NCBI RefSeq assembly: GCF_013377755.1
Contig: NZ_JABXWR010000001.1
Span: 755,104 to 819,103 of the forward strand
Reading direction: 5' to 3'
From: Methanofollis tationis
GTDB taxonomy: Archaea > Halobacteriota > Methanomicrobia > Methanomicrobiales > Methanofollaceae
DNA: 64,000 nt
This document shows, one piece after another, positions 3,680-22,763 of the stretch. The notes below the pieces were generated by a model. The model saw only the letters and a program-made list of their open reading frames with translations. It ran no database searches and was not told where the DNA came from. Made by a program: the position numbers and the translations under genes. Within the stretch, counting starts at the first letter, position 1. Each line of letters starts with the position of its first letter.

Positions 3680-3936
3680 GTGTCAACGAACCGGTATATC
3701 AACCTTATCGAAAGCATCTGTTCAGTACTCCGATCTTCCCATCTGCCTCTTTATTCCTGCAAATACTCCCGGAAAATGTATACTCAGCATCAACTCATGG
3801 CTATTCTTCTCTTTCGTGAAGCTCTTCGCACTGACTATCGCTCGACCGTTGAGCTCATCGATCTAATGGACGGAGTCAAAGAGATCCTTCAGCTTGATCA
3901 GGTCCCCCACTACTCAACCATCCAAAAAATATATCT
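3680..3936 (+). pseudogene. N-terminal fragment of a second transposase, cut by IS copy A
   Basis: About 85 codons from ATG 3680 encode a transposase-like N-terminus (MYTQHQLMAILLFREAL, then PHYSTIQKIYL), a pattern known from archaeal IS4/IS5-type transposases. The gene meets the left end of IS copy A at 3937. Joining it across the IS, minus one ATCT, continues only a short distance (YVALRWHQ...) to a TAA and shows no recognisable remainder. It was therefore probably already degraded before the insertion. Family assignment below IS4/IS5-like is uncertain. Confidence 0.6.
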
Positions 3937-5075
3937 GAGAATTTCGAACAACCCCACCTCACCCAAAGTACTTTATAGTCCCGGATCGACCTTTTTCCCA
4001 TGAGCACGTTTACCAATTTCGCGATCCACCACGAATATGCCAGCCTTGCAGCTCTGGGTGATCGGCTGGGTGAGGTCAGCGGTCTGATCGACTGGGATGC
4101 CTTCCGCCCTCTCCTTGCTGACCTCTACACCAACGCCGAGGGGCGAGGCGGCCGTCCGAACTATGACGTCGTTCTGATGATCCGGCTGCTGGTGCTTCAG
4201 CAGTGGTATGGCCTGTCTGACCCCGAACTGGAGCGTCAGGCGACCGACCGGATCTCGTTCCGTCACTTCCTGGGATATCCGGAAACCATTCCGGATCGGT
4301 CGACGGTCTGGCTGTTCCGGGAACGCTTGGCGCAAACCGGGAAGGATACCGCGATCTGGGATGAGTTCCAGCGGCAACTCGAAGTACAAGGGCTCGCCAT
4401 CAAACGCGGTGTCATGCAGGACGCGACGTTCATCACCGCCGATCCCGGGCATGCTCCTGCCGGCACGCCCCGGGGAGATCAGGCAGAGACGCGGCGCAGC
4501 CGCGACGGCACCTGGGCCAAGAAGGGCTCGAAGTCACAGTTCGGGTACAAACTTCACATCCTGCTCGACAAGGACAGTCAGCTGATCCGCCGGATTGAGA
4601 CCACCACGGCGTCACTCCATGACAGCAGGATCGATCTCTCCCGGGAAGGTGAGACGGTCTATCGCGATAAAGGCTATTTTGGGGTGAAACCGCAGGCATC
4701 TATGGACAAGACCATGCACCGGGCCGTTCGCAACCATCCCCTCTCCATCAAGGAGAACCGGCGGAACAAGGCCATCAGCAGAACACGATCGCTGGTGGAA
4801 CGACCGTTTGCCGTGATCAAGCGGGTGTTCCATGCAGGCCACCTCATGGTCACGACGGTTGCCAGAGTGCACGTCAAGAACATCTTCTCCTGCATGAATT
4901 TCAACTTCAGGCAACTTCTTACCCTCAAAGCGCAAGCTGCCGAGCGATAGCTCTCGAGAAAATCCAAAAAACCCTCTAAATGCAGGGGTTCAGGAAGGAA
5001 ACGGCTGAACAGCGAGGGGAAGAGGGCAGTCGGGAGCGAGTATCTGATGGCAGGGAGGAGTTAATCGCAATTCTC
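3937..5075 (+). mobile_element. IS5-type insertion sequence, copy A (1,139 bp)
   Basis: The ends are defined by comparing three copies. The left end begins GAGAATTTCGAACAACCCC. The right end, reverse complemented, begins GAGAATTGCGATTAACTCC, which matches at 15 of 19 positions. The flanks carry ATCT at 3933-3936 and again at 5076-5079, a probable 4-bp target duplication. It carries a single transposase gene. Confidence 0.92.
4000..4950 (+). CDS. IS5 family transposase, copy A
   Basis: A 316-residue DDE transposase identical in protein sequence to the copies at 11468-12418 and 21750-22700. Visible motifs are DAT at 141-143 (first catalytic D), YRDKGY with D223, and a C-terminal SLVERPFAVIK block with E267 and K274, which fits the IS5 family DDE/YREK layout. 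An N-terminal helical region (residues 53-110) precedes the catalytic fold. It starts at ATG 4000, 63 bp inside the left terminal repeat. The frame is intact, and the identity between copies implies recent transposition. Confidence 0.95.
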   Translation: MSTFTNFAIHHEYASLAALGDRLGEVSGLIDWDAFRPLLADLYTNAEGRGGRPNYDVVLMIRLLVLQQWYGLSDPELERQATDRISFRHFLGYPETIPDRSTVWLFRERLAQTGKDTAIWDEFQRQLEVQGLAIKRGVMQDATFITADPGHAPAGTPRGDQAETRRSRDGTWAKKGSKSQFGYKLHILLDKDSQLIRRIETTTASLHDSRIDLSREGETVYRDKGYFGVKPQASMDKTMHRAVRNHPLSIKENRRNKAISRTRSLVERPFAVIKRVFHAGHLMVTTVARVHVKNIFSCMNFNFRQLLTLKAQAAER

Positions 5076-11342: not shown

Positions 11343-12481
11343 GAGAATTGCGATTAACTCCTCCCTGCCATCAGATACTCGCTCCCGACTGCCCTCTTCC
11401 CCTCGCTGTTCAGCCGTTTCCTTCCTGAACCCCTGCATTTAGAGGGTTTTTTGGATTTTCTCGAGAGCTATCGCTCGGCAGCTTGCGCTTTGAGGGTAAG
11501 AAGTTGCCTGAAGTTGAAATTCATGCAGGAGAAGATGTTCTTGACGTGCACTCTGGCAACCGTCGTGACCATGAGGTGGCCTGCATGGAACACCCGCTTG
11601 ATCACGGCAAACGGTCGTTCCACCAGCGATCGTGTTCTGCTGATGGCCTTGTTCCGCCGGTTCTCCTTGATGGAGAGGGGATGGTTGCGAACGGCCCGGT
11701 GCATGGTCTTGTCCATAGATGCCTGCGGTTTCACCCCAAAATAGCCTTTATCGCGATAGACCGTCTCACCTTCCCGGGAGAGATCGATCCTGCTGTCATG
11801 GAGTGACGCCGTGGTGGTCTCAATCCGGCGGATCAGCTGACTGTCCTTGTCGAGCAGGATGTGAAGTTTGTACCCGAACTGTGACTTCGAGCCCTTCTTG
11901 GCCCAGGTGCCGTCGCGGCTGCGCCGCGTCTCTGCCTGATCTCCCCGGGGCGTGCCGGCAGGAGCATGCCCGGGATCGGCGGTGATGAACGTCGCGTCCT
12001 GCATGACACCGCGTTTGATGGCGAGCCCTTGTACTTCGAGTTGCCGCTGGAACTCATCCCAGATCGCGGTATCCTTCCCGGTTTGCGCCAAGCGTTCCCG
12101 GAACAGCCAGACCGTCGACCGATCCGGAATGGTTTCCGGATATCCCAGGAAGTGACGGAACGAGATCCGGTCGGTCGCCTGACGCTCCAGTTCGGGGTCA
12201 GACAGGCCATACCACTGCTGAAGCACCAGCAGCCGGATCATCAGAACGACGTCATAGTTCGGACGGCCGCCTCGCCCCTCGGCGTTGGTGTAGAGGTCAG
12301 CAAGGAGAGGGCGGAAGGCATCCCAGTCGATCAGACCGCTGACCTCACCCAGCCGATCACCCAGAGCTGCAAGGCTGGCATATTCGTGGTGGATCGCGAA
12401 ATTGGTAAACGTGCTCATGGGAAAAAGGTCGATCCGGGACTATAAAGTACTTTGGGTGAGGTGGGGTTGTTCGAAATTCTC
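11343..12481 (-). mobile_element. IS5-type insertion sequence, copy B (1,139 bp)
   Basis: Same length and ends as copies A and C, in minus orientation. The flanks differ: GGCA at 11339-11342 and ATGA at 12482-12485, so there is no target duplication. That suggests an adjacent deletion or recombination with another copy after insertion. A truncated gene abuts its 12481 end. Confidence 0.93.
11468..12418 (-). CDS. IS5 family transposase, copy B
   Basis: A 316-residue protein identical to copy A (4000-4950): D141, D223 in YRDKGY, and E267 in the SLVERPF block. The frame is intact. It starts 63 bp inside the terminal repeat, as in the other copies. Confidence 0.95.
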   Translation of the reverse strand: MSTFTNFAIHHEYASLAALGDRLGEVSGLIDWDAFRPLLADLYTNAEGRGGRPNYDVVLMIRLLVLQQWYGLSDPELERQATDRISFRHFLGYPETIPDRSTVWLFRERLAQTGKDTAIWDEFQRQLEVQGLAIKRGVMQDATFITADPGHAPAGTPRGDQAETRRSRDGTWAKKGSKSQFGYKLHILLDKDSQLIRRIETTTASLHDSRIDLSREGETVYRDKGYFGVKPQASMDKTMHRAVRNHPLSIKENRRNKAISRTRSLVERPFAVIKRVFHAGHLMVTTVARVHVKNIFSCMNFNFRQLLTLKAQAAER

Positions 12482-12637
12482 ATGAGTCTCAAACGGCCGC
12501 GACATCGTCGCCGGCGTCTGCAGGGGATCCATGGGGATCACCCCGCCCCCCTCCCCACACCAGGTACAGCGCCAGAGATCGGTCATCGCCCGCGAAAACT
12601 CCTGGTGGTCCAGAACGCCCGGGAGGATCAGCGGCAC
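12482..12637 (-). pseudogene. 5' fragment of an unknown small gene, truncated by IS copy B
   Basis: From GTG 12637 the minus strand encodes 52 codons (starting MPLILPGVLDHQEF, then WRCTWCGEGGG and PMDPLQTPATM) and runs straight into the IS end. AGGTG sits 6 bases before the GTG, a plausible ribosome-binding site. A CxxC pair (CTWC) may be half of a zinc site. I do not recognise the family. Composition looks protein-like but the fragment is short, so it may be chance. Confidence 0.35.
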
Positions 12638-13214: not shown

Positions 13215-14339
13215 TCACCCCGACGCCTCCCCGATCTCGGGCGGCACTGGCACATCGACCACCGATTCGGTATAATCGTCGAACCACAGGGCATCAGGGT
13301 TCCGCCTGAAGGCCATGAACGTCCCGATCTTCTCAGGATCGGCCGCCTGATGGTACTTGAAGAAGACATACTCGTCGGTGAGGCCGGCGACCTCGATCTT
13401 CCCGGTCGCATGGGAGATCACAAACCGCGCCCTCTTCGCGAGCCCCGAGACCTGCGCCTTCGCCGCCTCGATGATCGCATAACTCTCCTCCACCGGCACC
13501 TGGAACATCCGGTTCCCCAGGGTCGGGCGGCACTGGAAGACATAGTACGGCGGCACCCCGATGAACGAGAGTTTCCTGAACAGATCGGCGAGCACCGCCG
13601 GATCGTCGTTCACCCCGCGCAGGATGGGCGTCTGGTTCACCACGATCGCACCCGCAGAGAGCAGGAGGCCGAGCGCCTCCACCGCCTGCGGCGTGAGCTC
13701 ACGCGGGTGGTTGAACTGCGCCATGATGTAGATCCGCTTCTCGGGCGTCGAGTATTTCCTGATCATCTCGGACAGAGAGGGATCGTCCAGGACCCGGTAC
13801 GGGTTGAAGGCCGGCATCTTCGACCCGATCCTGATGATCCCCACATGCTCGATCCCCCTGATCGCCGCCACGATCGGTTCGAGCTTCGCGGTCGCCATGA
13901 TCAGGGGATCCCCGCCGGTCAGGAGCACATTCGTGATCTCGGGGTGATGCCTGATATACTCGATCTCTTCTGTGACGTCCCGCGTCACCTCGGCGCCCCG
14001 GTCCATGAACAGGCGTTTTCTGAAGCAGAAGCGGCAGAACGTCCCGCACATGTCCGATACCAGTAAGAGGGCGGTCTCCCGGTACTTGTGCTGGAGACCC
14101 GGAGCAACCGTATAGTTCGACTCCCTGGAGGGGTCAAGGACACCCGACTCCTCCAGCTCCATCGGGTCAGGCACGGCGATCCGCCTGATTGGGTCGGCCG
14201 GATCGTCCCAATCGATGAGGGAAACATAATAATCGTTCGAGCGGAAAGCGAATTTCTCCTCCACCTTCTGCAGCATGATCTTCTCTTCAGGGCTCAATGC
14301 ATCGATCTGGTCGACGCCTGTCAGGTATCGCAGTTTCAT
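13215..14339 (-). CDS. KamA-family radical SAM aminomutase (lysine 2,3-aminomutase-like)
   Basis: A 374-residue radical SAM, PLP-dependent enzyme that would convert lysine to beta-lysine, the osmolyte precursor in methanogens. The radical SAM cysteines are C-GTF-C-RF-C at about residues 98-105. LLTGGDPL and RIGSKMPAFNPYR are family motifs. ATG 14339 is chosen because AGGAGGTG lies 8 bases before it; an in-frame ATG 36 bp upstream lacks this. It is shorter than classical KamA (about 416). The acetyltransferase gene ablB, its usual partner for N-acetyl-beta-lysine, is not adjacent, so a different lysine or protein substrate (EpmB-like) remains possible. Confidence 0.82.
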   Translation of the reverse strand: MKLRYLTGVDQIDALSPEEKIMLQKVEEKFAFRSNDYYVSLIDWDDPADPIRRIAVPDPMELEESGVLDPSRESNYTVAPGLQHKYRETALLLVSDMCGTFCRFCFRKRLFMDRGAEVTRDVTEEIEYIRHHPEITNVLLTGGDPLIMATAKLEPIVAAIRGIEHVGIIRIGSKMPAFNPYRVLDDPSLSEMIRKYSTPEKRIYIMAQFNHPRELTPQAVEALGLLLSAGAIVVNQTPILRGVNDDPAVLADLFRKLSFIGVPPYYVFQCRPTLGNRMFQVPVEESYAIIEAAKAQVSGLAKRARFVISHATGKIEVAGLTDEYVFFKYHQAADPEKIGTFMAFRRNPDALWFDDYTESVVDVPVPPEIGEASG

Positions 14340-14518
14340 CCTATTTTCACCTCCTCTTAAACCCGGGTCCCTCAAATTCCAGAAGGGGGGGTAAGACCTA
14401 TTGACCGGGCATGCCAGCAGCGCCCCCGTACGAAGAAGGGCACTGCCAGAGGATAACAGGTTACACTATAGCGGTACCAACATAAAAAAATTAGGACGAG
14501 AGGGGAAAAAGGGGATCA

Positions 14519-14914
14519 CTACTTCTTCGAAGACTTTTTATTGTCCTTTTTATGCATCGAGAGGATATCCACCATATATTTCCCCTCTCTGCCCAGGCTG
14601 ACGACCATCTCCTCGCTCTGTGCGAGTTTCTCGATGTTCAGTTCATACGAACCAGGCCCGACGATACGGATCGACTCGACGCGGTCATAGCACTCGACAC
14701 GCTTCGGGGCCTCCTCCTCCTCCCTGACCTCGAGTTCCTCCTCACCGGTCTCCTCGGCGATCTCCTCGATCGTCTTCTCCTCGAGCACATCCTCGTGCCG
14801 CGTCGATTCCCTGATGTAGAGGAACTTCTTCCCCCCGCAGCTCGGGCAGCCCTTCAGGATCCCGGTCGAACCGTCCTCGAACTCTCTTCCACATCTGGTG
14901 CACTTATGCGGCAT
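14519..14914 (-). CDS. Zinc-ribbon protein of the GTPase/DUF2073 set (OapC/ArvC-like)
   Basis: A 131-residue protein. The N-terminus is a zinc ribbon with C5-x2-C8 and C23-x2-C26. Residues 45-70 are strongly acidic (EEKTIEEIAEETGEEELEVREEEE). The C-terminal part (VESIRIVGPGSYELNIEKLA) looks like a small beta domain found in archaeal homologues. It starts 6 bp after the upstream gene ends, so it is the third gene of an operon with DUF2073 and Era-like GTPase genes, an arrangement conserved in many archaea. Function not established. Confidence 0.75.
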   Translation of the reverse strand: MPHKCTRCGREFEDGSTGILKGCPSCGGKKFLYIRESTRHEDVLEEKTIEEIAEETGEEELEVREEEEAPKRVECYDRVESIRIVGPGSYELNIEKLAQSEEMVVSLGREGKYMVDILSMHKKDNKKSSKK

Positions 14915-14920
14915 TGCCTC

Positions 14921-15301
14921 TCACCGTGACGAAACCCAGGCACTGATCAGATCCTGGTCCTTCTTGAGGGTCTTGAGCTGGTTTGCAGGCCCGATCACCG
15001 TCAGCCGCGACTCGGACTTTTTCCCGATCAGACGTGAAAGTAAACCGCCAAACCCTTCGTTTCCGCCCTTTGCAGGATAGGTCTCCAGCTCGATCCCGGA
15101 AAAGCCGTCAGGCTTGATCTCCATCATCGTCAGCTCGATGAGTTTGCTCTGCTCCTCGGGCAACAGCCCCTTCTCAAGCACGACAATGGTGCCTGAACGC
15201 ACATCGTCGAGGATCAGCCTGATCTTCTCCATCATGGTCAGCCGATCAAGCCGTTCTGCCGAGAGGAAATCGATCTGAACTCCCTGGATCATCCTGTTCA
15301 C
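14921..15301 (-). CDS. DUF2073 protein (OapB/ArvB-like)
   Basis: A 126-residue protein matching archaeal DUF2073 proteins: GVQIDFLSAERLDRLTMMEK at the N-terminus, IRLILDDVRSGTIVVLEKGL, and a C-terminal RLTVIGPANQLKTLKKDQD. GTG 15301 overlaps the GTPase stop (GTGA), a sign of translational coupling; ATG 15292 is also possible. No catalytic motif is visible. Constant pairing with the GTPase suggests a partner or effector subunit. Confidence 0.75.
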   Translation of the reverse strand: MNRMIQGVQIDFLSAERLDRLTMMEKIRLILDDVRSGTIVVLEKGLLPEEQSKLIELTMMEIKPDGFSGIELETYPAKGGNEGFGGLLSRLIGKKSESRLTVIGPANQLKTLKKDQDLISAWVSSR

Positions 15302-15939
15302 CCAAACATCTCGGTCATCTTCTCGTAGAGCTGCTCAACATTGCTCCCCTCCATCCCAGATATAGGGATCACCGGGTGCTGCGGGAAGGCGCTCCTGATG
15401 CGCTGAGGGGTGGCGTCAGGGAGGTCAATCTTGTTGGCAACGATGATCACCGGGAGTTTCCGGCTCTCGATGATCCCGATCATCATAATATTGACCTGCA
15501 TGAAGGGATCCTGGGTGGAGTCGAGCATGTAGATGACGCCGTCGATATCATCGCGGAGCCAGTGCATCGCCTCGGCGACACCCTCAGTCGCCTCCCGTGC
15601 CCGCTTGATCGCCTCCTCCTTCTCAAGGCCGTACTCGAGGAACTCGTTGTAATCGATCTTCGTCGTCACGCCGGGTGTATCGACGATATCGATGATCACC
15701 GAGCTGCCGTTCGTGCCCGTGATCGTGATGTCTTCCTTCCTTCGGGCCCGCCGCGTCTCATGCGGAATCTCGGAAACCGGACCGACGGCGTCGCCGGTCC
15801 AGTCCCTCACGATCCTATTGGCAAGTGTGGTCTTACCAGCATTGGGAGGACCATAAATACCAATTCTTGACCGCTTTCTTCTAAAAAACGCATTGAGAAA
15901 TGTAGATACCCGTTGTCTTGCCCGAACCAGAAAATTCAT
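15298..15939 (-). CDS. Era-like GTP-binding protein
   Basis: A 213-residue TRAFAC-class GTPase. G1 is GPPNAGKT (30-37), G3 is DTPG (87-90), G4 is NKID (169-172) and G5-like SGMEG follows near residue 197. A basic N-terminal helix (residues 1-25) precedes the G domain. It lacks the KH domain of bacterial Era, so RNA binding cannot be assumed. It heads the GTPase-DUF2073-zinc ribbon operon. GGGGATGA precedes ATG 15939. Partner and cycle are unknown. Confidence 0.85.
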   Translation of the reverse strand: MNFLVRARQRVSTFLNAFFRRKRSRIGIYGPPNAGKTTLANRIVRDWTGDAVGPVSEIPHETRRARRKEDITITGTNGSSVIIDIVDTPGVTTKIDYNEFLEYGLEKEEAIKRAREATEGVAEAMHWLRDDIDGVIYMLDSTQDPFMQVNIMMIGIIESRKLPVIIVANKIDLPDATPQRIRSAFPQHPVIPISGMEGSNVEQLYEKMTEMFG

Positions 15940-16147
15940 CGTTCATCCCCTATTCCAGAGTATACAGCTACTCAGTAGAAGATTGCCCCACCCGGTATAA
16001 ATACTCCCCCATATTGTCCCGGATATAACCCCGGCGCATACAGGCAGGAATTCATGAATTTCCTACAGTATTCTTTTATAGGGGAATCTCATAGGTAGAG
16101 GTATCTGGATTAAATCCGGAGTAAAGCGACCCTCTTGGGGTGAACTC
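15940..16147. promoter_or_regulatory. Divergent promoter region between GTPase and CBS operons
   Basis: GGTATAAATACTCCCC at 15995-16010 reads GTATTTATACC on the minus strand and would start the GTPase operon about 25-30 bp further on. For the plus strand, TTCTTTTATAGG at 16071-16082 is the best TATA box, giving a leader of about 45 bases before the GGGGTGAACTC-ATG of the first CBS gene. A second TATA-like GGATATAACC lies at 16021-16030. Confidence 0.5.
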
Positions 16148-16711
16148 ATGTCCGGCACACGAGAAACAATGTACGTAGAAACCAGGGTTCCGCTGAAGGA
16201 AGTGATGAGGGTCAACCCTACCACCATCGAGGCTGAAGCAACGGTCGCAAAAGCCGCGGCTCACATGTGCCGAGATGAAGTCGGGAGCTGCATCGTCCTT
16301 TCGGGGAACGTACCCATTGGCATCGTTTCCGAACAGGATATGAACTGCAAGGTCGTTGCACGGGATCTCAAACCGAGCTCGGTCTATGTCAGAGACATCA
16401 TGAGCACTCCCCTCATCACCATCGAGTTGGACAAAACCGTGGGGGAGGCGGCACAGATGATGATCAAACACCGGGTGCGCAGACTTCCGGTGGTTGAGAA
16501 CGGGAAAGTCCTGGGCATGGTCACGGTCAGAGATCTTCTCGGCGTTGCAAACGAACTCAACGAAATCATGTCGGATCTCATCGTCATCAACCGGGAGGAA
16601 AACTATGCCATGGGCATCTGCGACCGGTGTGGAAAGATGAGCGATGACCTTACTCCTATGGACGCGGTCATGCTGTGTAAAGAATGCAGGGAGGAGGAGC
16701 GTTTGAGATGA
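16148..16711 (+). CDS. CBS-pair protein with C-terminal zinc finger (CBS gene 1)
   Basis: A 187-residue protein. Residues 12-140 form one CBS pair (Bateman module): KEVMRVNPTTIEAEATVAKA in the first and VRDIMSTPLITIELDKTVGE in the second, each ending in a VxVRD/VSEQD-type motif. Residues 158-180 hold two CxxC pairs (C158-C161, C177-C180) that should bind zinc. Bateman modules bind adenosine nucleotides or SAM and act as energy sensors. First of five CBS genes in one direction; its stop overlaps the next start (ATGA), indicating coupling. It is the only one of the five with a metal site, so it may contact nucleic acid or a protein. Confidence 0.88.
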   Translation: MSGTRETMYVETRVPLKEVMRVNPTTIEAEATVAKAAAHMCRDEVGSCIVLSGNVPIGIVSEQDMNCKVVARDLKPSSVYVRDIMSTPLITIELDKTVGEAAQMMIKHRVRRLPVVENGKVLGMVTVRDLLGVANELNEIMSDLIVINREENYAMGICDRCGKMSDDLTPMDAVMLCKECREEERLR

Positions 16712-17466
16712 AAAGGGCCGAAGACGTAATGGTGAGGATCCCCGTCCTTACCACAGACGAACACATGACCCGGGCACGCCAGGTGCTACGGGACGACATA
16801 TTTCGCGAAATCGCGGTCACCGATCCAAAGGGACGGTATGTCGGCTACATCGACATAACCGATGCCCTGCGGGTCACTGATACAAAGTCCGACATCCTCA
16901 TCAAAGGCTTTGTCAGAGCGGGCTCAACCGTGCCGCCCGGCGCATCGCTGATCGCCGTATCACAGGCGATCATGGAGAAAAATACCGACATCGCCGTCGT
17001 CGTCGACGATGAAAACCATGTGCTCGGCGGCGTCCTGCTCTCAGAGATCTTCCCGATCCTCTGCACGCGTGAGGACCTGCGGGGAATGGTCAGAGACTGC
17101 ATGGAGAACCGGCCGCCGGTATGCAATGCAGAGGACAATCTGGGCAAGATATATTCGAAAATGATAGAAACCGGCATTTCGGCCTTTGCAGTCATAAAAG
17201 AAAAGAGCCTGATCGGAATGCTGTCACGGAGGGATATCTTAAATAACGGAAGGGTGAGAAAGAGCCTGGAGAGCGGGGGGAAAGTGCCGGTCGAAAGCGT
17301 CATGACGACACCGGTCATCACCATCGAAAAGGACGAGAGCATCAGCGCCGCTGCAGAGCTGATGGTCAGCCACGATCTTTCCCAGCTGCCTGTAGTCGAC
17401 GGCGATCTCCTTGTTGGAATGATCGACAGACATGGCGTGCTGAACGGGCTTCATACAAAGGAATGA
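16708..17466 (+). CDS. Four-CBS-domain protein (CBS gene 2)
   Basis: A 252-residue protein made only of CBS repeats, two Bateman modules in tandem. MKRAEDVMVRIPVLTTDEHM opens the first, and VESVMTTPVITIEKDESISA with the DLSQLPVVDGDLLVGMIDR core forms the last. The middle repeats are more divergent. ATG 16708 overlaps the upstream TGA. No membrane segment or enzymatic domain is present, so it should be a soluble sensor that regulates a partner. The ligand cannot be predicted. Confidence 0.85.
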   Translation: MKRAEDVMVRIPVLTTDEHMTRARQVLRDDIFREIAVTDPKGRYVGYIDITDALRVTDTKSDILIKGFVRAGSTVPPGASLIAVSQAIMEKNTDIAVVVDDENHVLGGVLLSEIFPILCTREDLRGMVRDCMENRPPVCNAEDNLGKIYSKMIETGISAFAVIKEKSLIGMLSRRDILNNGRVRKSLESGGKVPVESVMTTPVITIEKDESISAAAELMVSHDLSQLPVVDGDLLVGMIDRHGVLNGLHTKE

Positions 17467-17470
17467 TGGT

Positions 17471-18412
17471 ATGCATAAGAACAACCAGAATATGAAACAG
17501 GGAGACAAGCTCCTGAAAATGCCCGGCAAACTTGACCGCGGCCCGATCGAGTTCAAGTCCAGAATCGTCGAGTCCGAAGGCGAGGTGATGGCGATCGCCA
17601 CGCGTGAGGTCATATCGGTACCGCCGACGATGAGCATCATCAGCGCCATCGAGACGATGACCGAGTACGGCTTCCGCCGGCTTCCGATCACCGACGCAGG
17701 GACAAAACGGCTCCTCGGCATCGTCACGGCACGGGACAGCATTGACTTCCTGGGCGGCGGCGATCATTTCAATCTGGTCAGGGTCAAGCACAACGGCAAC
17801 CTGCTTGCAGCCATCAACGAGAGTGTCAGAGAGATCATGACCCAGCGGGTGACGACCATCCCGCACACCGCATCGATCGCCGACGTCACCGAGATCATCG
17901 TCACAAAAAAGATTGGCGGCCTGCCCATCGTTGACGAGGAGGAAGTCCTCACCGGGATCGTCACCGAGCGGGACGTGATGAAGGCGCTTGCCACTGAAGA
18001 GACCGATATCATGGTCGAAGAGATCATGAGCACGGGGCTGCGGGTCACCGGCCCGGAGGCACCGATCGGAACGGTGACGCGGGAGATGATCACGCACGGG
18101 TTCAGGCGTCTCCCTCTGGTCATGGACGACGTCCTCTACGGGATCGTTTCGGCATCGGATATCATGAAGTATCTCGGCACCGGCGAAGTGTTCAAGCGCC
18201 TCTCGACCGGCGACGTTGCCGAGGTAATGGCCCTCCCGGTGAGGAGCCTCACGTCAGGAGAACTCATCACCACCGTCCCTGACGCAAATATCAACGATGC
18301 AGCACTGAAGATGCTGCAGAGGAAGGTCGGTGCGCTTCCGGTCATCGAAGACGGGAGACTGATCGGCCTGGTAACCGAATTTGACCTTGTGAAAGCATTT
18401 TCCGGGAAGTGA
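17471..18412 (+). CDS. Four-CBS-domain protein (CBS gene 3)
   Basis: A 313-residue protein with a basic 30-residue N-terminal tail (MHKNNQNMKQGDKLLKMPGK) followed by four CBS repeats. Each repeat shows the MtxxVxxVxxxxxixxaxxxM...RLPV...GIVTxRD pattern (FRRLPITDAGTKRLLGIVTA; GGLPIVDEEEVLTGIVTERD; FRRLPLVMDDVLYGIVSASD; GALPVIEDGRLIGLVTEFD). The best-conserved CBS repeats of the cluster are here. It starts 4 bp after the previous stop. The basic tail is unique in the set and could bind nucleic acid or membrane; that is inference. Confidence 0.88.
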   Translation: MHKNNQNMKQGDKLLKMPGKLDRGPIEFKSRIVESEGEVMAIATREVISVPPTMSIISAIETMTEYGFRRLPITDAGTKRLLGIVTARDSIDFLGGGDHFNLVRVKHNGNLLAAINESVREIMTQRVTTIPHTASIADVTEIIVTKKIGGLPIVDEEEVLTGIVTERDVMKALATEETDIMVEEIMSTGLRVTGPEAPIGTVTREMITHGFRRLPLVMDDVLYGIVSASDIMKYLGTGEVFKRLSTGDVAEVMALPVRSLTSGELITTVPDANINDAALKMLQRKVGALPVIEDGRLIGLVTEFDLVKAFSGK

Positions 18413-18417
18413 TACAG

Positions 18418-19257
18418 ATGAAAGCAGAGGATGTGATGTCATCACCGGTCAGAGTGGTAGCGCCTGAAGACACCGTTGCGTATGCGAGAAACCAGATGAT
18501 CAAGCACAAGATCTCGCGCGTCCTGGTGATGGAGGGAGACCGCCTTGCCGGCATCATTACCAAGAAGGATCTTGCCTACCGCCTCAGAAATACCGATCCG
18601 GTCTGGCGGAGACGGCCAATCGACCGCATCCCTGTTTCCTTACTGATGACGCCGGCCCCGATTGTCGTGGACCCCGAGACGAGCATCAGGGATCTCGCTG
18701 CCCTCATGCTCGACCGGATGATCAGCGGCATCCCCGTCGTCAACAGCGACGAAGTGATCGGCATCGTTACGAAATCAGACATCCTGAGGTCAGCATCGGT
18801 TCAAAAACTCGACGTCCCGGTCACCGCCCTCATGGAGGAGGCGATCACGGTCAGCCGGTATCATTCGCTTGACCACGTCGTCGATCTCTTCTCTGAGAGC
18901 GGAGGAAAACTGATCGTCGTCAACAATGACGGAACGCTCGCCGGAATCATCACCGAAACAAACCTCGCCTTTTACGAGTATGCAAACGAAGCCGGAGAGA
19001 TACCCGAAAAAGATATTAAAATGCTGAGAAAAGAAACATCTGGCGGCAGGAAGTCATTCAGATATATTCTGGAGGTCTCTGCGGTCGCCGAAGACGTAAT
19101 GACCCATCCTGTCGTGACCACCGGCCCCGAGACCACCGCCGCAGCAGCGGTGAAGATGATGATCGACCACCACATCAACAGTATGGTCATCGCGCGAGGA
19201 TCCGAGATCCTCGGGATCGTAAAGAGAGACAACATCTTACAGGAAGTGGCAAAATGA
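18418..19257 (+). CDS. Four-CBS-domain protein (CBS gene 4)
   Basis: A 279-residue protein with four CBS repeats: MKAEDVMSSPVRVVAPEDT, VSLLMTPAPIVVDPETSIRD, VTALMEEAITVSRYHSLDHV and AEDVMTHPVVTTGPETTAAA. Between repeats 3 and 4 is a charged linker of about 30 residues (EIPEKDIKMLRKETSGGRKS). ATG 18418 is preferred over an in-frame GTG at 18409 that overlaps the previous stop. The 3' end overlaps the next start by ATGA. No other domain is present. Confidence 0.87.
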   Translation: MKAEDVMSSPVRVVAPEDTVAYARNQMIKHKISRVLVMEGDRLAGIITKKDLAYRLRNTDPVWRRRPIDRIPVSLLMTPAPIVVDPETSIRDLAALMLDRMISGIPVVNSDEVIGIVTKSDILRSASVQKLDVPVTALMEEAITVSRYHSLDHVVDLFSESGGKLIVVNNDGTLAGIITETNLAFYEYANEAGEIPEKDIKMLRKETSGGRKSFRYILEVSAVAEDVMTHPVVTTGPETTAAAAVKMMIDHHINSMVIARGSEILGIVKRDNILQEVAK

Positions 19258-20039
19258 GCGAAGAGATGTACATCTATATCAGAGACGTGATGGCAAAACC
19301 CCTCACCATCTCAAAGTCTGCACCAATCACCGACGCCCTCGACAAAATGCTCTCCGAGAACATCGACCCCCTGATCGTCACCGACAACGGGGCGGTCGTC
19401 GGCACCATCTCCAGACAGGCGATAGCGGAGACGCTCGGCAAAAAGAGGAACGCCGACATGCCGCCGACACAGATCCATGTTTCAAACAGTGTCTCAGAAG
19501 AATTTACCGCGGCCTACCCGGATCAGGGCGTCGAGATCCTTCCCGACCTCCTCCAGCACGCAAAGATCGTTGTGGTCTTCGATCAGGAGCACAATTTGAT
19601 CGGCCAGGTCACCTATGGTGACCTGCTGAAGATCATGCAGCCGTCAGCGGCGGTAAAAGATGTTATGGAACCGGCATACACCATCAACGCCGAGGAGAGA
19701 GTGGTTCACCTCCGCCGCAGGATGGTCGACGAGGGGATCTCCCGCTTCATCGTCGCTGCCGATAACGGTGCGGTCGGGATTGTCACCGAAACCGATGTTG
19801 CCAGATCCATGCGGGCCTTCCGCGAGGTGGTCGAAGGGAAGCACCAGGATCACCGGATCAGAAACCTCATCGTCCGCGACATCATGTCGACCCCGCTGAT
19901 CTCGGTCGATGCAGAGAAACCGCTCGCCGAGATCATCGACCTGATGATCGCAAAGAAGATCAGTTCCCTCCCGGTCGCCAGCGGCAACGGAAAGATCGCC
20001 GGCATCATCACCAGGTCGTCGCTGATCAAAGCGATGTGA
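19254..20039 (+). CDS. Four-CBS-domain protein (CBS gene 5)
   Basis: A 261-residue protein with four CBS repeats, beginning YIRDVMAKPLTISKSAPITD and ending VRDIMSTPLISVDAEKPLAE with KISSLPVASGNGKIAGIITR. Repeat 2 is the least typical (ILPDLLQHAKIVVVFDQEHN). It is last in the run and is followed by an AT-rich stretch with T runs, likely a terminator, before the IS200/IS605 element. Confidence 0.87.
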   Translation: MSEEMYIYIRDVMAKPLTISKSAPITDALDKMLSENIDPLIVTDNGAVVGTISRQAIAETLGKKRNADMPPTQIHVSNSVSEEFTAAYPDQGVEILPDLLQHAKIVVVFDQEHNLIGQVTYGDLLKIMQPSAAVKDVMEPAYTINAEERVVHLRRRMVDEGISRFIVAADNGAVGIVTETDVARSMRAFREVVEGKHQDHRIRNLIVRDIMSTPLISVDAEKPLAEIIDLMIAKKISSLPVASGNGKIAGIITRSSLIKAM

Positions 20040-20067: not shown

Positions 20068-20191
20068 CTTGCGGGGGTAAAGGGGGCGGAGCGGGAAGTC
20101 CCCGGTCTTCAGGCCGGGGATGAAAACGGAGCCGCCCTTTTTCCTTGCGATAGATAGATCTTATTGGGTGACGTATTATGGAATACCCAAC

Positions 20192-20599
20192 ATGAAGTAT
20201 AAACTTGATAGGTCAGCGCATTCAGTCTTTGCTCTCTACTATCATCTAGTGATAGTAGTGAAGTATCGCCGGAAAGCGATGTATTCTGACGATATTCGGG
20301 AACGTCTGAAAGATATTGTGTGGAACCTATCTGACGAGTTGGGTATAGAGGTTGTTGCTCATGAGCCCGCCGAAGATCACTATCATCTTCTCTTCAAGGC
20401 GACTCCAAAAACCAACCTCGTCAATGTTGTCAATGTGATCAAGGGGGTATCAGCGCGGAGACTGCGGCAGGAGTTTCCTGCAACAAAGAATTTACTGTGG
20501 GGAGATTCCTTGTGGTCTCCGTCATATTTCCTTGCAACATCGGGGTAGGTAAGCCTTGACGCCCTGAAAGAGTACGTCGATTCTCAATTGGAGAAGTGA
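20192..20599 (+). pseudogene. tnpA: tnpA, IS200/IS605 Y1 transposase with in-frame amber codon
   Basis: From ATG 20192, 118 codons encode a HUH-type single-strand transposase with the HYH metal motif in DHYHLLF. A TAG at 20546-20548 stops it after SYFLATSG. In the same frame the expected C-terminus continues (VSLDALKEYVDSQLEK) to TGA 20597-20599, exactly before the tnpB ATG. The Y-x3-Q pair of the catalytic helix, YVDSQ, lies after the amber codon (Tyr at 20573-20575), so the truncated protein lacks its nucleophile. TAG is a common normal stop in this window, so readthrough is unlikely. Confidence 0.85.
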
Positions 20600-21624
20600 A
20601 TGATCATTTCCTACAAGTATCGGGCGTATCCGGATGCAACCGTGGAAACACGATTGCACGAGACACTTGATACCTGTAGGTGGCTCTACAACAAACTCCT
20701 CGAAGAATGCACCACAGCAAGGGAGGGTGGGATCTCCCCGACGATGCGAGGAATGCAGGCGCGGATCGTCACGCTGAAGGATGAGAATCCGTCTCTGAAG
20801 AGCGTGTATTCCAGGGTGCTTCAGATGGTGAACTATACCCTCTGGAGTAACATCGCTGCACTCTCGCAGACGAAGAGGAGAGGACGGAAAATCGGCAAAC
20901 TCAGGTTCAAGAGTGCATTCCGATACCGGACGCTCAACTACAACCAGTCCGGGTTCAAGATCGACCGCGAACAGAGCACGATCACGTTCTCAAAGATCGG
21001 GGCAATTCCGTTCACGATGCACCGACCATACACGGGAAAGGTGAAGGGTGTTCTGATCACTCGTTCCGGTGATGGATGGTACGTGATCATTCAGGCAGAG
21101 CAGGAGGCTTCCGCGTCAAAGCGGGAAGGACGGTCTGTCGGGATCGATGTCGGTCTGAACTCGTTTGCCGTCGATAGCGAGGGTGCGGTGATTGAGAATC
21201 CAAGGTTCTATGAGCACTCGCTGAACCAGATCAGAAAGTTACAGCAGAGCATTGCCCGAAAGAAGCGATTTTCACAGAACTGGAAGAAGGCAAAAAGCAG
21301 GCTGGAGAAGGTCTATGATCATATCACGAACCAGAAAAAAGATTTCCTGCACAAACTCTCCCGTCAGTATGTTGATACCTATGCGGCGATCTGCGTCGAA
21401 GACCTGAATATCAAAAGTCTGAAGGAGAAAGGCAACGCTACAGGATTGCACAGGAGCATCCATGATGCTTCGTGGGGTCGATTCTATTCTTATCTTTCGT
21501 ACAAGGCTGAAAGTGCTGGTACGAAACTCGTCAAAGTTGATCCCCGGAATACGTCGCAGATGTGCTCAAACTGTGGTAGCATCGTGAAAAAGACGCTCTC
21601 CGAGAGAGTCCACGAATGTCCATA

Positions 21625-22763
21625 GAGAATTGCGATTAACTCCTCCCTGCCATCAGATACTCGCTCCCGACTGCCCTCTTCCCCTCGCTGTTCAGCCGTT
21701 TCCTTCCTGAACCCCTGCATTTAGAGGGTTTTTTGGATTTTCTCGAGAGCTATCGCTCGGCAGCTTGCGCTTTGAGGGTAAGAAGTTGCCTGAAGTTGAA
21801 ATTCATGCAGGAGAAGATGTTCTTGACGTGCACTCTGGCAACCGTCGTGACCATGAGGTGGCCTGCATGGAACACCCGCTTGATCACGGCAAACGGTCGT
21901 TCCACCAGCGATCGTGTTCTGCTGATGGCCTTGTTCCGCCGGTTCTCCTTGATGGAGAGGGGATGGTTGCGAACGGCCCGGTGCATGGTCTTGTCCATAG
22001 ATGCCTGCGGTTTCACCCCAAAATAGCCTTTATCGCGATAGACCGTCTCACCTTCCCGGGAGAGATCGATCCTGCTGTCATGGAGTGACGCCGTGGTGGT
22101 CTCAATCCGGCGGATCAGCTGACTGTCCTTGTCGAGCAGGATGTGAAGTTTGTACCCGAACTGTGACTTCGAGCCCTTCTTGGCCCAGGTGCCGTCGCGG
22201 CTGCGCCGCGTCTCTGCCTGATCTCCCCGGGGCGTGCCGGCAGGAGCATGCCCGGGATCGGCGGTGATGAACGTCGCGTCCTGCATGACACCGCGTTTGA
22301 TGGCGAGCCCTTGTACTTCGAGTTGCCGCTGGAACTCATCCCAGATCGCGGTATCCTTCCCGGTTTGCGCCAAGCGTTCCCGGAACAGCCAGACCGTCGA
22401 CCGATCCGGAATGGTTTCCGGATATCCCAGGAAGTGACGGAACGAGATCCGGTCGGTCGCCTGACGCTCCAGTTCGGGGTCAGACAGGCCATACCACTGC
22501 TGAAGCACCAGCAGCCGGATCATCAGAACGACGTCATAGTTCGGACGGCCGCCTCGCCCCTCGGCGTTGGTGTAGAGGTCAGCAAGGAGAGGGCGGAAGG
22601 CATCCCAGTCGATCAGACCGCTGACCTCACCCAGCCGATCACCCAGAGCTGCAAGGCTGGCATATTCGTGGTGGATCGCGAAATTGGTAAACGTGCTCAT
22701 GGGAAAAAGGTCGATCCGGGACTATAAAGTACTTTGGGTGAGGTGGGGTTGTTCGAAATTCTC
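21625..22763 (-). mobile_element. IS5-type insertion sequence, copy C (1,139 bp)
   Basis: Same ends and length as copies A and B, minus orientation. CATA at 21621-21624 and 22764-22767 is a clean 4-bp target duplication within tnpB, whose frame is restored exactly by removing the IS and one CATA. Confidence 0.96.
21750..22700 (-). CDS. IS5 family transposase, copy C
   Basis: A 316-residue protein identical to copies A and B, with all three catalytic acidic residues present and an intact frame. Confidence 0.95.
   Translation of the reverse strand: MSTFTNFAIHHEYASLAALGDRLGEVSGLIDWDAFRPLLADLYTNAEGRGGRPNYDVVLMIRLLVLQQWYGLSDPELERQATDRISFRHFLGYPETIPDRSTVWLFRERLAQTGKDTAIWDEFQRQLEVQGLAIKRGVMQDATFITADPGHAPAGTPRGDQAETRRSRDGTWAKKGSKSQFGYKLHILLDKDSQLIRRIETTTASLHDSRIDLSREGETVYRDKGYFGVKPQASMDKTMHRAVRNHPLSIKENRRNKAISRTRSLVERPFAVIKRVFHAGHLMVTTVARVHVKNIFSCMNFNFRQLLTLKAQAAER

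Follow-up and report, generated by a model that had tools for sequence, protein, structure and literature searches.

CBS-module families CM-1 to CM-6 were defined in the April 2026 paper on HibA (PMC13324472). According to that work, Dri (a fusion of CM-1 and CM-5) and HibA sit in idle archaeal ribosomes at the tRNA, mRNA and peptidyl-transferase sites, and Thermococcus deleted for hibA resumes growth later and contains less 70S. The stand-alone modules CM-1, CM-2, CM-4 and CM-5, which seldom co-occur with HibA, were named likely hibernation factors; dormant ribosomes of Methanosarcina acetivorans were found to contain CM-1 and CM-4 (the discussion adds CM-5), and a CM-5/4/1/2 gene cluster was reported. 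Three cryo-EM entries released on 2026-01-28 are entitled as the M. acetivorans 70S ribosome in complex with SriA and SriB (PDB ID: 9ZNF), with SriD (9ZNG) and with SriC and SriD (9ZNI). All three also contain protein uS13 (aligning as its counterpart in M. acetivorans 9O17 does) and are therefore ribosome entries. A literature search on SriA-D and the PDB code returned nothing relevant.

Here we analyse a stretch of 64,000 nucleotides from Methanofollis tationis (the window), in which an operon of five CBS-domain genes, judged by its sequence relationships, very probably encodes a ribosome-hibernation set. The core of this system is of a known kind and has been structurally solved in a relative; for Methanomicrobiales, the literature searched gives no more than a note of the cluster. 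Four features are apparently undescribed in that literature: the association of cbs1 with the cluster, the coupling of the cbs3 tail to cbs2, the adjacency of arvABC and the RNA ligase neighbour. The main text of the paper reporting the CM-5/4/1/2 cluster does not mention links to zinc, vesicles or a ligase, and its methods retained two-tandem CBS proteins, so that cbs1 would be left out (PMC13324472).

Organization of the operon

Five consecutive coupled ORFs lie on the forward strand at positions 16148-20039 (Table 1). Their products, 187-313 aa long, consist of CBS domains throughout (2+4+4+4+4 = 18), and ORF calls, Pfam searches and near end-to-end PDB alignments all agree with a sequence-only reading of this DNA, which had described five coupled CBS genes with about 18 repeats. 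CBS (PF00571) was the sole domain matched by Pfam in the five proteins, and the Pfam and NCBIfam searches yielded generic CBS names and nothing more specific. This 3.9 kb operon accounts for 16 of the 45 CBS matches of the whole genome. The second CBS domains of cbs2 and cbs5 are degenerate and were both missed by the whole-genome CBS search; the total of 18 is right because the PDB chains that these two proteins match over nearly their whole length have four CBS domains.

The ORF coordinates likewise confirm the tight junctions that had been read as ATGA overlaps or 4-5 bp gaps. ATGA overlaps join cbs1 to cbs2 (which starts at ATG 16708, not at 16684 upstream) and cbs4 to cbs5, 4 bp separate cbs2 from cbs3, and cbs4 starts either at GTG 18409, with a GTGA overlap, or at ATG 18418, with a 5-bp gap. 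CTTTTATA is present in 43 of 83 intergenic regions of the kind that separates the operon from the divergent genes on its 5' side. When a common regulatory word was sought in the 208-bp region, TATA-like and Shine-Dalgarno-like words alone were found to recur.

Table 1. Features of the CBS operon and of the divergent arvABC operon (positions within the window)
Feature	Positions	Strand	Description
arvC/oapC	14519..14914	-	PF09845, zinc-ribbon protein
arvB/oapB	14921..15301	-	PF09846
arvA/oapA	15298..15939	-	Era-like small GTPase, divergent from cbs1
Intergenic region	15940..16147		208 bp, common to both divergent operons; TATA-like TTCTTTTATA upstream of cbs1
cbs1	16148..16711	+	Two CBS and C-terminal four-Cys zinc ribbon (predicted); operon head gene
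Zinc ribbon of cbs1	16616..16690	+	Cys158/161/177/180
cbs2	16708..17466	+	Four-CBS module; CM-5 type; Dri N-lobe-like; SriA by chain order
cbs3	17471..18412	+	Four-CBS module with N-terminal tail; CM-4 type; MJ1225-like; SriB by chain order
cbs3 N-terminal tail	17471..17584	+	About 38 residues; conserved DRGPxxFKSR-type motif
cbs4	18409..19257	+	Four-CBS module; CM-1 type; Dri C-lobe-like; SriC orthologue
cbs4 basic loop	18976..19086	+	Between CBS3 and CBS4; KDIKMLRKE..GGRKSFRY; collinear with Dri C-lobe loop
cbs5	19254..20039	+	Four-CBS module; CM-2 type; SriD orthologue

Counterparts of ribosome-bound proteins

PDB sequence searches paired each of the four-CBS proteins with a chain of the M. 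acetivorans ribosome entries: the cbs2 profile with 9znf_4 (2e-96), the cbs3 profile with 9znf_5 (2.8e-99), the cbs4 profile with 9zni_6 (2.8e-113) and a single cbs5 sequence with 9zni_7 and 9zng_7 (5e-40). The alignments are one to one and nearly end to end, and each Sri chain has the expected cbs gene as its top match within the window. SriD corresponds to cbs5, because chain 7 is the sole such chain in 9ZNG, and SriC to cbs4, because this is the remaining CBS chain of 9ZNI (chain 6); SriA is equated with cbs2 and SriB with cbs3 by chain order only. With their four tandem CBS domains, full-length similarity and Methanosarcina-type gene order, cbs2-5 are one-to-one full-length orthologues of SriA-D, in identical order, and the published CM-5/4/1/2 order fits cbs2-3-4-5 as well. 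A Methanosarcina-like genome (family f8, genus g79) has the five-gene cluster, and its genes 2-5 share 83-93% identity with the PDB chains. Intergenic distances reach about 500 bp in such Methanosarcina-like loci, whereas the Methanofollis genes overlap or are 4-5 bp apart.

As shown by this orthology, cbs2-5 are the Methanofollis counterparts of the 70S-bound SriA-SriD of M. acetivorans, and binding to the Methanofollis ribosome is inferred from the same relationship. The window proteins share 30-45% identity with the PDB chains, and binding sites could differ from those of SriA-D.

Comparison with Dri of Pyrobaculum calidifontis (9E6Q, 9E7F) points in the same direction: the highest score for the N half of Dri came from the cbs2 profile (75 bits) and that for its C half from the cbs4 profile (56 bits, the CBS3-CBS4 loop included), so that the N-lobe resembles cbs2 and the C-lobe, with its loop, cbs4. 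The operon would work like Dri but is not Dri, in which two CBS modules are fused in one polypeptide; in Methanofollis they are separate genes. HibA of Pyrococcus abyssi has a four-CBS module related to cbs2/CM-5, but it carries an HPF/RaiA-type domain, found in none of the five operon proteins. A PF02482 search, with a model that is unreliable for archaeal HibA, gave no match in this genome nor in Haloferax.

From what is known of the family, CBS modules would fill the vacant functional sites of idle ribosomes at growth arrest. The Dri-N-like cbs2/SriA may cover the peptidyl-transferase/tRNA region of the large subunit and the Dri-C-like cbs4/SriC the mRNA channel, cbs3/SriB and cbs5/SriD being their probable partners in the pairs of 9ZNF and 9ZNI. 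Translation would thereby be blocked and rRNA protected until growth restarts. Such a role would give a likely function to genes that, in most Methanomicrobiales methanogens, have been recognised by nothing but their CBS domains, and would extend a ribosome-bound system of one Methanosarcina to the whole order and beyond.

Putative nucleotide-binding sites

Both CBS sites of cbs1 (in all 58 orthologues) and all four of cbs3 (in nearly all of 60 sequences) retain the ribose-site motif G-h-h-[ST]-x-x-D. In cbs4 it is kept at sites 1-2 and site 3 is altered (Asn in 44 of 46 sequences); cbs5 keeps it at site 3, with the Asp also at site 2, and sites 1 and 4 are consistently altered. Some sites are therefore probably structural. 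Ligand sensing by the operon proteins is plausible on this evidence, and adenylates may be bound at those sites of cbs1 and cbs3 whose ribose-binding residues are intact, which could tie ribosome binding or release to the energy state.

The same conservation can be read as the mark of a free hetero-oligomeric adenylate sensor, similar to AMPK gamma, acting independently of the ribosome to control other enzymes. Four CBS domains with the adenylate-site Asp, as in AMPK gamma/MJ1225-like proteins, are found in cbs3 alone, which is similar over its full length (8e-59) to MJ1225, a protein whose PDB title calls it a putative archaeal gamma-AMPK homologue. However, the operon contains no kinase or enzyme partner, and the orthologues of cbs2-5 are all ribosome-bound in deposited structures, so that we consider a free sensor improbable. 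The sequence-only reading had proposed a hetero-oligomeric sensor with no effector encoded in the operon. Joint action of the proteins is supported, but not as a free complex, since the orthologues sit on the 70S ribosome as SriA with SriB, SriC with SriD, or SriD alone; as for the effector, the ribosome is the most likely target, and an RNA ligase gene extends the run of genes outside the order.

The zinc-ribbon gene cbs1

The zinc finger noticed in the first gene is real, Cys158, Cys161, Cys177 and Cys180 being invariant in 20 of 20 orthologues from inside and outside Methanomicrobiales. In the predicted structure of cbs1 the C-terminal element is strand-rich, and the fold matches Ta0289, among other two-CBS proteins. 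Like cbs1, Ta0289 (CBS-rubredoxin-like; PDB ID: 1PVM, 2QH1) combines two CBS domains with a C-terminal four-Cys ribbon; identity between the two is 22-24%, and the zinc of cbs1 is predicted. The gene is present at 132 of 137 cluster loci, a distribution that takes a single change on the tree, and a contig scan with cbs1 picked up three Methanofollis genomes and one distant match, to Bathyarchaeota. In the ribosome entries 9ZNF, 9ZNG and 9ZNI no separate chain was found for cbs1. It may be a fifth component of the set, with an accessory or regulatory role.

A zinc ribbon could also contact DNA, and CBS modules can act as transcription regulators, as does HhpR of Pyrococcus yayanosii, which is of the CM-3 type (PMC13324472). 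We nonetheless hold it extremely improbable that the operon encodes regulators of this sort: cbs2-5 are devoid of a DNA-binding domain, the NCBIfam HhpR matches fall far under the cut-off, and CM-3 is set apart from CM-1/2/4/5 (PMC13324472).

The cbs3 tail and the cbs4 loop

The basic tail that had been noted on the third gene was recovered and lies at the N terminus; its consensus within Methanomicrobiales is LKMPGKLDRGPVEFKSR. A tail-scoring matrix trained on Methanomicrobiales alone gave scores of at least 14.3 in held-out loci with cbs2 and of at most 9.1 in loci without it, and the tail is present in 93 of 93 loci that contain cbs2 and in 0 of 45 that do not. On a cbs3 tree built without the tail region, four changes in cbs2 are needed (three on well-supported branches), with the tail changing each time. 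There are no exceptions, but 3-4 independent changes are too few for a sign test of this coupling to reach significance. The tail of cbs3, the most retained gene of the cluster, may act jointly with cbs2.

The basic loop of cbs4 is poorly ordered in a structure model of cbs4 alone. Full-length cbs4 was found solely alongside cbs2; in one clade (genera g20 and g33) cbs4 is kept without cbs2, and there the loop is deleted. One locus (L099, 8544-10436, minus strand) contains a natural cbs3-cbs4 fusion of 630 aa with eight CBS domains, which suggests that cbs3 and cbs4 can act together. This fusion sits in the second copy of the cluster in its genome (G223).

Conservation of the cluster

Gene neighbourhoods show that the cluster is kept throughout Methanomicrobiales and in many outside families, instead of its genes occurring singly beside different effectors, the outcome that would have spoken against the sequence-only reading. 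Orthologues of cbs4 occur, by our count, in 107 of 149 Methanomicrobiales genomes. All family-level groups of the order have the arvC-arvB-arvA genes facing cbs1-2-3-4-5, with gene losses in some genera. Phylum-wide, matches to the cbs3 profile form two peaks by our count, one of 122 of 197 genomes (2e-159 to 2e-82) and another of all remaining genomes, at 1e-33 or weaker. Many families outside Methanomicrobiales have the five-gene order too, and in one large family of small genomes (f9) the pair cbs1-cbs3 alone is kept. With gene order conserved across the order and far beyond it, a chance origin of the arrangement is not an issue.

Several of the outside families can be named tentatively: f8 would be Methanosarcinaceae, f9 Methanobacteriaceae, f14 Methanocellaceae and f21 Archaeoglobaceae. 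Genus g79 of f8 is placed more firmly, by the 83-93% identity of the M. acetivorans PDB chains to one of its genomes. Genus g65 of f8 (G247, G258 and others) is devoid of cbs3-like genes, and other genera of this family carry the whole cluster.

Neighbouring genes: arvABC and an RNA ligase

A GTPase, PF09846 and PF09845 in one operon identify the divergent genes as arvABC, the former oapABC, renamed for a role in the formation and output of extracellular vesicles in Haloferax (PMC10927574). GTPase, OapB and OapC are encoded in the same order in Haloferax volcanii; the Methanofollis operon differs in its divergent pairing with the CBS operon and in its large distance from the main orc1. The pairing extends over Methanomicrobiales and six other families (f11, f14, f15, f16, f19 and f25), and was not seen in the loci of f7, f8, f9, f12, f18, f21 and f28. 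In Methanomicrobiales, oapB matches lie at a near-constant distance from the cluster, and almost every genome of the phylum (188 of 197) has oapB. It went undetected in genera g9 and g12 of f5 (G011, G017, G054, G058 and others), which keep the CBS cluster; the loci of these genera that were read retain oapA and oapC.

The link to the divergent GTPase suggested earlier therefore stands as far as placement goes, the GTPase being ArvA/OapA and its position conserved; its functional meaning is still a matter of inference. ArvA/B/C control vesicle output in Haloferax (PMC10927574), and the conserved pairing could mean that the CBS proteins gate ArvA or regulate the arvABC vesiculation operon, with ribosome binding secondary. 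We regard this as very improbable, since haloarchaea-like genomes have oapB without a cbs3-like gene, oapB is non-adjacent in presumed Methanosarcinaceae, Archaeoglobaceae and Methanobacteriaceae, and family f7 as well as genera g9 and g12 are without oapB yet keep the CBS genes.

Outside Methanomicrobiales, 40 of 60 loci have a Pab1020-type RNA ligase gene (PF18330) on the same strand 3' of the cluster, within 90 bp of it in 34 of the 40. The RNA ligase of Thermococcus kodakarensis is described as needed for circularisation of C/D box sRNAs (PMC9014305). As an effector in Methanofollis the ligase was rejected, PF18330 being absent from this genome and from the other Methanomicrobiales genomes tested.

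Together with the probable hibernation of ribosomes by the Sri-type proteins, the conserved presence of a GTPase of vesicle formation and of an RNA ligase next to the cluster hints at a broader dormancy programme. In its fullest form, which we put forward as a rather unlikely proposal, the Sri operon, the ArvABC operon and (outside Methanomicrobiales) the RNA ligase would be one dormancy module, cbs1 a fifth ribosome factor or a switch for loading and unloading, and the cbs3 tail the SriA coupler; hibernating ribosomes might be a target of the Era-like GTPase, or their RNA might be exported by it. The fifth gene missing from the solved complexes, the tail that tracks cbs2 and the conserved neighbours are all worth following.

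A replication-origin link through OapABC was also considered and rejected, the main orc1 being far off (1.25 Mb vs 0.77 Mb), likewise in other complete Methanomicrobiales genomes searched; orc1 lies about 12-20 kb from the cluster in some complete Methanosarcinaceae-like genomes alone. An extra orc1/cdc6-like gene (G000:C1:740850-741899) is situated about 30 kb from the cluster, just beyond the window.

Beside arvC, a radical SAM protein (PF04055) is encoded at 13215-14375 on the minus strand and resembles, by eye, lysine 2,3-aminomutase. An IS200/IS605-like pair (20120-21625) starts 80 bp past cbs5 and comprises, by eye, a 142-aa TnpA-like and a 341-aa TnpB-like protein. Three identical IS copies (3936-5018, 11400-12500 and 21682-22763; 100% over about 1.08 kb) encode a 316-aa transposase, and two copies in the same orientation flank arvABC and the CBS operon, so that recombination between them could delete both.
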